A stretch of DNA of 64,000 bases from Bacteroidota bacterium (GTDB lineage: Bacteria > Bacteroidota > Ignavibacteria > Tepidaquicellales > Tepidaquicellaceae): positions 1 through 64,000 of the forward strand of contig JAFDZP010000001.1 in the NCBI GenBank assembly GCA_018266835.1, given 5' to 3'. The notes under the pieces are model-generated. The model saw only the letters and a program-made list of their open reading frames with translations. It did no database searches and was not told the DNA's origin. The position numbers and the translations under genes are program-made. Every line of letters begins with the position of its first letter. Within the stretch, counting starts at the first letter, position 1. Positions 22,302 to 57,902 of this stretch are shown piece after piece.

Positions 22302-23195
22302 TTAATTCGCGTTAAATATATTTAAGAATCTCTCGCTTTCTAAAATTTTTCTTAGTGATAGAATAAAGTCAGGGGATTTTTCAAACGGATGAGTTCTGAA
22401 TAAATCGTTACATTCATTATCAAGAACGCTTACAAGCTCCTGTACTTTTTCACCGGCCATTTTATCCATTTTAAAATAATAGCTTCGTGTGAATTTCAGA
22501 TTATTAGGATTCACATAACCAATGTTAATAAGAGCTTTTGTTTTTTTACTGCATCTGCATGGATTTTCTTTATTAACCAGACCGCATTTATTGTTCATAA
22601 AATTGTGAAGGTCTCTTCTTGCGCGTGAAAGTTTCTGTCTGAAATTATCTTTTGAGATTTCCATTATTTCGCTTCCTACTGTATCGGATATTTGCATCAG
22701 TCCTCCAAGTGTATATACCAGTCGCTGCTCTCTGTCTAAACACAGAAGCATTCCGAACATGCAGGATATCTTAACTTCCTCAACAAGAATTTTAGAGTCG
22801 ACAGGGTAGCTTGTGTTATCGGGAAAATCGGAGTCAGGGCAGTTATCAATATTTTTAGCATATTGTGTGAAGTTATTTGCATGCTGCATTTCACCCATGC
22901 TTTTTTTCATGTTGAGGACATGGTTGACTACAATTCTGTATGCCCAAGTCCTGAAGCTGCTTCTGCCTTCAAAGCTGCCGAGCTTTGTAATGATTTTTAT
23001 AAGGACTTCCTGAGTCACATCTTTAGCCTCATCGGGATTGAATACCATCCTTAAAGCAATATTATAGATATAATCCTGATGTTTCTTTATCAGCTTTTCA
23101 AGCGAGGGTTTATCTCCCGATACAGAAAGCGCGACAAGCTCGCTATCGGAAGTATCGCCTTTGTATTTATCTGAAAGTATGTTTTGCGGTTCCAT
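22302..23195 (-). CDS. ECF-type sigma-70 factor with C-terminal extension
   Basis: The 297-residue protein has sigma region 2 (about residues 31-97: YIYNIALRMVFNPDEAKDVTQEV, then SFRTWAYRIVVNHVLNMKK) and region 4 (about 150-200, with SKDNFRQKLSRARRDL as the DNA-binding helix). ECF factors are normally near 180-200 residues; here about 95 more follow, beginning with a cysteine motif C204-x8-C213-x-C215 (NPCRC). The extension may sense a signal or replace an anti-sigma factor; that is inference. No anti-sigma gene is adjacent. The next gene, 18 bases on, encodes a T9SS-sorted beta-helix protein. The conserved box at 23268-23283 lies about 75 bases upstream of the start and is a candidate control site. 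Confidence 0.9.
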   Translation of the reverse strand: MEPQNILSDKYKGDTSDSELVALSVSGDKPSLEKLIKKHQDYIYNIALRMVFNPDEAKDVTQEVLIKIITKLGSFEGRSSFRTWAYRIVVNHVLNMKKSMGEMQHANNFTQYAKNIDNCPDSDFPDNTSYPVDSKILVEEVKISCMFGMLLCLDREQRLVYTLGGLMQISDTVGSEIMEISKDNFRQKLSRARRDLHNFMNNKCGLVNKENPCRCSKKTKALINIGYVNPNNLKFTRSYYFKMDKMAGEKVQELVSVLDNECNDLFRTHPFEKSPDFILSLRKILESERFLNIFNAN

Positions 23196-23267
23196 ATTGT
23201 GTTAGACGGTTAAAAATTGAAAGTGTGACAACATTAGTATAAAGTAGCAGGTATAAAGTAAAAAGTA

Positions 23268-23283
23268 ACATTATTGTTACATT
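23268..23283 (+). promoter_or_regulatory. Conserved box A, copy 1 (ACATTATTGTTACATT)
   Basis: The core ACATTATTGTnACATT occurs here, at 23745-23760 and, inverted, at 57773-57788; only the n position changes (T, C, A). This copy extends to a perfect dyad GTAACA-TTAT-TGTTAC at 23265-23280. It lies upstream of the sigma gene and at the left border of the tandem-repeat region. Role unknown: operator or part of a dispersed repeat. Confidence 0.5.
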
Positions 23284-23320
23284 CCGGTGGTCCATTGTTG
23301 TTTTTACAATATTGCTCATT

Positions 23321-23575
23321 TTATTTTTCGAAATTTGACGGGGTTTTGACGGATTTTGGAGAAAAATTTATCCCCATTAAATTTAATCTATTTTCAAAGT
23401 ATTTAAATTTGATAAAATTATTTTTCAAAATTGATGGTTTTTTGACGGATTTTGGAGAAAAATTTATCCCCATCAAAAATAATCTATTTTCAAAGTATTT
23501 AAATTTGATAAAATTATTTTTCAAAATTGATGGGTTTTTGACGGATTTTGGAGAAAAATTTATCCCTATCAAAAA
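23321..23575. repeat. 96-bp direct tandem repeat, about 2.6 units
   Basis: The sequence GACGGATTTTGGAGAAAAAT recurs at 23348, 23444 and 23540, exactly 96 bases apart. Unit 1 (from about 23321) is slightly diverged with one indel, unit 2 (23418-23513) and the partial unit 3 (23514-23575) are almost identical. Because 96 is a multiple of three, open frames run through it on both strands (about 111-130 codons). They have no start context or family match, and I do not call them genes. A shortened relative follows at 23676-23710. Confidence 0.85.
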
Positions 23576-23592
23576 TAGAACAAAATTTCCCT

Positions 23593-23649
23593 GTCTCCCA
23601 AACCCCCGTTTGGGAGACATCTTCCGTCCCAAACAGGGGTTTAGGACGG
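23593..23649. repeat. Two adjacent palindromes with the TCCCAAAC core
   Basis: Hairpin 1: GTCTCCCAAAC at 23593-23603 with GTTTGGGAGAC at 23608-23618, a perfect 11-bp stem around CCCC. Hairpin 2: CCGTCCCAAAC at 23624-23634 with GTTTAGGACGG at 23639-23649, one mismatch. The same core recurs in a palindrome at 25226-25253. These look like REP-type dispersed elements. Confidence 0.65.
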
Positions 23650-23675
23650 AGAGCAAAAGTAAGTGACAAAAATCT

Positions 23676-23710
23676 TTTCAAAATTGATGAATTTTTGACG
23701 GGTTTTCCTG
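23676..23710. repeat. Diverged fragment of the 96-bp repeat
   Basis: TTTTCAAAATTGATGA followed by TTTTTGACGGGTTTT matches the start of the 96-bp unit, separated from the main array by the two palindromes. It suggests that the array was once longer or that the palindromes were inserted into it. Confidence 0.6.
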
Positions 23711-23744
23711 CAAAATAAAATTCTCTCTTCAATATAAAAAAGAT

Positions 23745-23760
23745 ACATTATTGTCACATT
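23745..23760 (+). promoter_or_regulatory. Conserved box A, copy 2 (ACATTATTGTCACATT)
   Basis: Second copy of the box at 23268, now at the right border of the repeat region, about 210 bases before the thiolase start. It shares the flank TTTTTG with the inverted copy near 57773. Confidence 0.45.
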
Positions 23761-23835
23761 TTTGGTATTTGAAACAAACAATCCTACTCACTTTTAAAAT
23801 TAATATATTTTATTCAGATATAAAAGAAATTCCTC

Positions 23836-23847
23836 CCTATTAGTAGG
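23836..23847 (+). promoter_or_regulatory. Conserved box B, copy 1 (CCTATTAGTAGG)
   Basis: A 12-base sequence with CCTA/TAGG arms, embedded in TCCCTATTAGTAGGTA and followed by TAGGGAA. It recurs identically at 57954-57965, and as CCCTATTAGTGG in inverted orientation at 57568-57580. It lies about 125 bases upstream of the thiolase gene. Confidence 0.45.
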
Positions 23848-23971
23848 TATAGGGAATTTTTTCCCCCCCATTACCATCCGGATTAAATTCAGTGAAAAAC
23901 TTATCTGTTTATAAACTTTAATAAATTGAGTAAATTGAAAGTTATTACAAAAATTAACTTATCAGAATTAA

Positions 23972-25189: not shown

Positions 25190-25253
25190 GTTGTTGGTCA
25201 GGAGACCAACAACGGCAACTTTTTCTGCTTCCCAAACCCCTGTTTGGGAAGCA
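25190..25253. repeat. Double-hairpin element before pgsA
   Basis: Two perfect stems stand side by side. GTTGTTGGTC at 25190-25199 pairs with 25204-25213 around AGGA, followed by GGCAACTTTTT. TGCTTCCCAAAC at 25226-25237 pairs with GTTTGGGAAGCA at 25242-25253 around CCCT. The second shares its core with the palindromes at 23593-23649. The first could also terminate thiolase transcription. The second ends 20 bases before the pgsA start. Confidence 0.65.
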
Positions 25254-57537: not shown

Positions 57538-57567
57538 CAGAGAAAATTATATAAATTTACCTCATTA

Positions 57568-57580
57568 CCACTAATAGGGA
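57568..57580 (-). promoter_or_regulatory. Conserved box B, copy 3 (CCCTATTAGTGG)
   Basis: Inverted copy of the box at 23836-23847 with one change. It lies about 70 bases upstream of the Cys/His gene. Confidence 0.4.
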
Positions 57581-57725
57581 AGAGTTCATTTGAATGAAAA
57601 ATTAAATATTGTATTTTTGAATTTGTATTAATTAGAAATAAGAGCACTTATTCTGTAGTGAATCTTAAGTTTAAAACTGAGCAAAAATTCGTCAAATTTA
57701 CAAAAAAATAGTGGTAAAATAAAAA

Positions 57726-57895
57726 CCCGACTAAAATCCGACTTTTTTTAAATACTGAAACAGCTAAACAAAAATGTTACAATAATGTTACTTTCATTTT
57801 AAAACCGGAGCGATGGAACGAAGGGATGTATAATATATGATAATTTTGGAAGTCGTAACTTTTGTTTGAGTAAATAATCCGACTATTTCCCGACT
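57726..57895. repeat. Repeated CCGACT pairs
   Basis: CCCGACT and TCCGACT occur at 57726-57732 and 57737-57743, and again as TCCGACT at 57878-57884 and CCCGACT at 57889-57895, each pair followed by ATTTTAAATA or TTTTTAAATA. The same short unit in a two-pair layout suggests a repeat or regulatory module rather than chance. Confidence 0.4.
57773..57788 (-). promoter_or_regulatory. Conserved box A, copy 3 (inverted)
   Basis: On the minus strand this reads ACATTATTGTAACATT, followed by TTTGT. It matches the boxes at 23268 and 23745, with the variable base as A. It lies between the CCGACT pairs. Confidence 0.45.
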
Positions 57896-57902
57896 ATTTT
57901 AA

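Follow-up and report, generated by a model that had tools for sequence, protein, structure and literature searches.

Interspersed repeats in the intergenic regions of bacteria are commonly interpreted as the debris of transposition. Among the described systems, the BOX elements of Streptococcus pneumoniae are MITE-like, give a folded RNA and are enriched between convergent genes (PMC3049150). Similar to these elements, the cassettes that we describe here are interspersed, intergenic, multicopy mosaics, with a variable number of internal modules in a fixed order, potential reading frames on both strands and possible effects on transcription. Unlike BOX elements, they have no supported unit fold and are not enriched between convergent genes (3 of 48 units, P = 0.11, not significant; a depletion there looked real, but at this P value we do not claim it), and their constant end is a predicted promoter unit with a palindrome. 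BIMEs, and the REPs and REPINs with their RAYT transposases, are likewise mosaic intergenic clusters bearing palindromes (PMC3116915), and the TCCCAAAC palindromes inside the cassettes look like REPs. However, the repeats that define the cassettes are polar pairs of direct repeats, and we rejected a REP system of the Y1-transposase type because the genome has no match to PF01797 while the controls were positive.

According to a passage in PMC3049150, the Correia elements of Neisseria are promoter-generating MITEs, interspersed between genes and able to carry promoters as the cassettes appear to do. Compared with that description, the cassettes have no visible terminal inverted repeats or uniform length, and their promoter unit is conserved at key positions only, with an array of variable length behind it. 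In this comparison with MITEs, no ends common to the cassettes are seen in the alignments apart from the unit and the boxes. In CRISPR and integron cassette arrays, too, a leader or promoter stands at the head of oriented, conserved repeats with variable sequence between them. The cassettes differ from these in that the repeat is itself a direct-repeat pair, the boxes are irregularly spaced where CRISPR repeats are identical and nearly constant in spacing, the spacers carry other genomic repeats, and there are about 50 loci per genome.

The window cassette and its 96-bp array

The window is a stretch of 64,000 nucleotides (contig JAFDZP010000001.1, positions 1 to 64,000), in which genes were taken from simple ORF calls. 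The promoter unit of the cassette spans 23853-23797 on the minus strand. It consists of the palindrome M7, CCTATACCTACTAATAGG (23836-23853), an upstream element centred about -54 from the predicted start, and a predicted promoter core at 23797-23825, TTT (23825-23823)-N20-TAATTT (23802-23797), which reads leftwards into the array from a start that its position would place near 23791. Beyond this start lie, on the plus strand, the promoter-proximal M1 box (about 23739-23762), a pair of 11-bp direct repeats antiparallel to the predicted transcript, then the M4 motif (TTCCTGCAAAATAA, 23706-23719) and an M3 box (23684-23706) within a diverged fragment of the 96-bp unit. Two REP-like palindromes follow, CCGTCCCAAAC..GTTTAGGACGG at 23621-23652 and TGTCTCCCAAAC-cccc-GTTTGGGAGACA at 23592-23619, the latter being an insert from another interspersed family. 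The tandem array carries one plus-strand M3 box per copy (23527-23549 in unit 3, 23431-23453 in unit 2 and 23335-23357 in unit 1), and beyond it lie the M2 palindrome TTG-N6-CAA (23296-23313) and a distal M1 box (about 23262-23285, plus strand). From the predicted start, transcription would proceed leftwards across the array in the direction of a gene of the sigma-70 family (region 2; 22302-23195, minus strand), which starts at 23195, downstream of the promoter unit and co-directional with it. The window contains another, smaller cassette of this family at 57561-57896 on the plus strand, with its palindrome at 57561-57578, TATTTT at 57612-57617, and M3r and M1 boxes on the minus strand.

An earlier note on this DNA had reported a sharp 96-base tandem period with units 2 and 3 nearly identical, and TRF bears this out with a single 96-bp array in the window (23321-23577, 2.7 copies, 93% matches). 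Its in-register copies start at 23325, 23421 and 23517; 87 of 96 positions are the same in units 1 and 2, and units 2 and 3 share 59 of the 61 positions that precede the end of unit 3. The diverged fragment described there is present at 23675-23741 (73%), as are the two interrupting palindromes, which fold strongly (z = -5.4), and the bordering copies of its "box A", at 23260-23283 and 23737-23760, are the two M1 boxes. The doubt it cast on coding was also justified, since the frame-preserving ORFs have no Pfam match, and we rejected a coding reading on this ground.

The note further proposed a genome search for the unit and offered as interpretations a structured RNA, a satellite with a role in replication or transcription, or a decayed mobile element, of which only part stands. 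When the region was compared by blastn with its own 4.0-Mb assembly, 55 further matches were found, every one of them partial. The parts recur at many loci (99 copies of M1 at one mismatch or fewer, 47 of M3 and 40 of the promoter palindrome, against 1, 0 and 0 for reversed-pattern controls), but the 96-bp unit occurs at this locus only. The region is a mosaic of pieces found genome-wide, in which the tandem duplication alone is private, and the 96-bp repeat is a local duplication within one cassette of a genome-wide family. With tandem copies confined to one locus, the satellite reading falls. A structured RNA is not supported either, because the 96-bp unit folds no better than its shuffles (z = +0.96 and -1.08 on the two strands), unlike the inserted REP palindromes, and the pairing within M2 does not exceed what its column composition would give; the conserved transcript structure of BOX- or BIME-type elements is found neither in the unit nor in M2. 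Rfam scans gave no match at the gathering score, and no match to a phage, plasmid or virus was found. The role in transcription fits the promoter unit and the orientation of the boxes relative to it. The decayed mobile element keeps a lesser probability, since no cassette stands at this locus in the congener G001.

The REP-like sequence TCCCAAAC is present 7 times in the window, where 1.9 copies would be expected. Behind the thiolase gene (25230-25249 of the window) there are further palindromes of the form TCCCAAAC..GTTTGGGA, which are also found genome-wide, and other interspersed families include CCCCCTCCTTGTAAAGGAGGGGG, hairpins of ACCTGACAGG and runs of ACGAATTACGA.

The probable promoter unit and the polarity of the boxes

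At one end of each array stands a unit of about 60 bp, composed of the palindrome CCTATTAGTANNWATAGG, about 10 bp, and TTK-N20-TAWWTT(TG). In an ungapped alignment of 51 units the palindrome core is invariant and the array-side flank is conserved at fixed positions with variable bases between them: TA and TT of the -7 box at 96-100% and TT of the upstream box at 90-98%, with a mostly variable spacer. A G is preferred at the expected start position, and beyond it there is no conservation. The two boxes resemble the Bacteroidota promoter consensus as quoted in a passage of PMC7366714 (-33 TTTG and a -7 TAnnTTTG-like box), at the spacing usual for this genome. In 356 palindrome-free regions upstream of genes, we counted TTG-N20-TAWWTT 43 times in the forward and 15 times in the reverse direction, and the spacings neighbouring N20 give counts near 11. 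Because the same N20 spacing peaks on the coding strand upstream of genes that have no unit, the unit is very probably a promoter, as judged from its sequence.

The units do not behave as ordinary gene promoters, since their direction is indifferent to the neighbouring genes (tandem same 15, tandem opposite 13), and no functional theme was found among the genes that flank the cassettes. A unit upstream of a lexA-like gene in the congener G001 (locus L167) had prompted us to consider a LexA box, which we rejected in the absence of a DNA-repair theme.

The array behind the unit holds boxes of three kinds: M1, a 24-bp site AWWGTNACATTATTGTNACATTTT (repeat form GTNACATTATTGTNACATTTT); M3, TTGAYGNNTTTTTGACGG, which is the core of the tandem unit of 96 bp; and M3r, GTCGG-N6-GTCGGGTTTT (GTCGG...GTCGG), with 33 copies against 0 in the control and none in G001. 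Each consists of two 11-bp direct repeats, and sequence autocorrelation peaks at a period of 11 bp, with 9.89 per thousand in the arrays and 0.23 in control stretches. The box sequence is GT[C/A/T]ACATT, mixed, in this genome and GTAACATT in the congener. Among 96 copies, M1 is sharply bounded at 24 bp with random flanks. Outside the boxes and the other interspersed repeats, the array sequence is not conserved and grows through local tandem duplication.

To relate the boxes to the promoter units, we scored those within 1.3 kb of a unit, and in this genome all 148 of 148 are placed downstream of the unit and run antiparallel to its predicted transcript (M1 75/75, M3 30/30, M3r 43/43), at distances that vary from about 60 to 1000 bp. 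By the same scoring M4 follows in 15 of 16 cases, and G001 gives 18/18 for M1 and 3/3 for M3. Boxes in one array are not independent, and the arrays scored number 44 in this genome and 9 in the congener. The motif patterns were derived from loci that were also scored, and orientation to the promoter unit was not used in choosing them. The sample is about 0.94 Mb of stretches picked mostly around motif hits, so that its counts are not those of a random sample; in it, 61 of 209 M1, M3 and M3r boxes have no recognised unit within 1.3 kb, because the promoter pattern misses diverged units and only 48 fit it strictly. A polarity linked to replication appears unlikely, as there is no usable GC skew and orientation alternates between neighbouring cassettes on several contigs. 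On contig C2 of this genome a long run of consecutive cassettes (198k-1180k) shares one orientation, and other contigs alternate.

Such regularity bears on the view that these are ordinary intergenic junk, in which unrelated interspersed repeats have piled up in tolerant regions and the 96-bp repeat is a private expansion. REP-like, CTCC and CCTG repeats do occur in the arrays, facing either way, and the 96-bp unit is private. However, neither the uniform polarity and downstream placement of the boxes nor a conserved unit with exact spacing is expected from random accretion. We consider this view highly improbable as a whole: it is contradicted for the ordered parts and holds only for the REP, CTCC and CCTG inserts and for the duplication itself.

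The same data bear on the boxes as operators of a regulator of the OmpR/PhoB kind, each with two head-to-tail 11-bp half-sites. The polarity would then simply be inherited, through tandem duplication, from an ancestral array. The sharp spacing of the pairs and the tandem duplication evident within arrays agree with this, as would a resemblance of M1 to pho-box-like repeats. Against it, no -10-like motif was found at a fixed distance from M1, the random flanks of the boxes speak against copying from a single ancestral array, the genes beside the cassettes are of mixed kinds, and the promoter faces either way relative to them without preference. We hold this explanation to be decidedly unlikely.

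Distribution, linked loci and mobility

There are about 50 gene-free cassettes of this kind in the genome. Among 59 relatives, clusters of M1 exist in G001 alone, the only one of them from the same genus (31 copies), with the other 58 at background, and the palindromes in the same relatives are confined to this genome and G001 except for one isolated match. When 84,980 named species were scanned, M1 was clustered in JAFDZO01, "Bacteroidetes bacterium isolate SZAS-86", and in no other; all remaining matches were single. Several cassettes occupy orthologous places in the two congeners, L128/C5:4k, L134/C6:29k, L138/C5:137k and L170/C4:32k among them. Alignment of six orthologous pairs of units shows agreement at 24/24 positions in the -7 box and 16/18 in TTK, compared with 84/108 for the palindrome and 67/120 for the spacer.

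The window cassette itself lies at about 23246-23890 between flanks conserved in G001 and is absent from its locus there, where other coding sequence separates the sigma gene from the thiolase gene; neither intergenic region adjoining that coding sequence has a unit. This absence implies that the window copy is not an ancestral essential feature. The proximal upstream sequence of the sigma gene (about 23215-23235) is conserved in the congener. The G001 cassette at L162 joins genes that lie beside two separate cassettes in the other genome (C4:118k and C4:221k), which suggests rearrangement between cassettes. G001 also has a larger and more uniform element, with M1, an M2-like palindrome and TTTCTGCAAAATAA, that ends at a different palindrome, CCATA-N6-TATGG (L130, L132, L135, L137, L140, L142, L143, L145 and L146).

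A solo HTH protein of about 230 amino acids has three paralogues in this genome (C2:25209-25853, C1:352532-353053 and C2:70334-70965, the last split by a frameshift) and one in G001 (C44:41009-41695), and all four clear HTH genes of the genus sit directly downstream of a palindrome-promoter unit. One of the proteins passes the cut-off of HTH_23 and one, at L009, that of HTH_Tnp_1 (24.6 bits against a curated 24.1); no catalytic domain was found in them. A second gene directly behind a unit, in G001 (L168:931-1419, minus strand), encodes a protein of 162 amino acids with no family match above cut-off.

The unit also precedes many hairpins of the family AAACTTACG-AGGGGG-CGTAAGTTT (ACTTACGAGGGGGCGTAAG with an AGGGGG loop), which has 38 copies in this genome (C5:129458, C5:167693 and C5:223211 among the loci), 56 in G001 (including L160, L163 and L164) and none in the 58 other relatives. 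These hairpins are flanked by TG-W6-ACA-N3-TTTA-like repeats, and some are near tRNA- or tmRNA-like sequence.

These patterns are where the main rival explanation, an origin from mobile elements, has its evidence. The cassettes would be non-autonomous, mobile or recently mobile elements, with the unit and the boxes as binding sites of a recombinase, the OrfA-like HTH protein as its DNA-binding half, the copies with HTH genes as coding versions and the arrays as non-coding derivatives. The cassettes are genus-restricted and multicopy, the window cassette lies between conserved flanks where another gene fills the gap in G001, units precede the HTH genes, and the L009 protein is just over the HTH_Tnp_1 cut-off. 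However, the alignments contain no conserved element ends and the flanks of M1 are random, several cassettes are at the same positions in the congener, invariant promoter positions amid variable spacers look like constraint and not recent copying, and Y1 transposases are absent. We regard a mobile origin as somewhat unlikely.

A possible role in transcription

We give an even chance to the explanation that this stretch belongs to a family of non-coding cassettes, each led by a promoter and confined to the genus, whose boxes act in a manner that depends on transcription and orientation. The anatomy of the cassettes is well supported by the sequence comparisons; the function we infer from it. 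A promoter that points into paired repeats, all facing the same way, suggests an undescribed non-coding regulatory system. The palindrome would bind a regulator, for which the solo HTH protein is a natural candidate, and if so its own genes would be autoregulated. The promoter would transcribe the array as an untranslated RNA or a long leader, here toward the sigma-factor gene, and the boxes would be active only when transcription passes through them. They would serve either as RNA-protein sites or as roadblocks or terminators that stop the polymerase in one orientation only. A role coupled to transcription is preferred because polarity is strict despite the variable distance between unit and box, and such one-way, strictly downstream placement is hard to square with a plain DNA operator and would be expected of boxes that work when polymerase or transcript runs past.

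Of these options, terminators would fit best with the multiple boxes per array and with the indifference to gene direction, and they leave the retention of the promoter unaccounted for. The sequence beyond the predicted start shows no conservation, an unusual state for a functional RNA and a point against the explanation given here. A wider proposal is that one solo HTH family controls dozens of like promoters across the genus, which transcribe non-coding arrays whose one-orientation boxes of 11-bp pairs form a protein-dependent terminator or an RNA-binding code, with a sequence that shifted in concert between the sister species; we think it unlikely.

What the cassettes offer is a strict and testable polarity rule. 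It connects, at about 50 loci of which several are common to sister species, direct-repeat boxes with a promoter marked by a palindrome. Should the boxes affect transcription in a single orientation, they might represent a terminator or an RNA-binding signal of a kind not described before, and if the cassettes are mobile, they would represent a class of promoter-marked elements paired with a solo DNA-binding protein of the transposase type.
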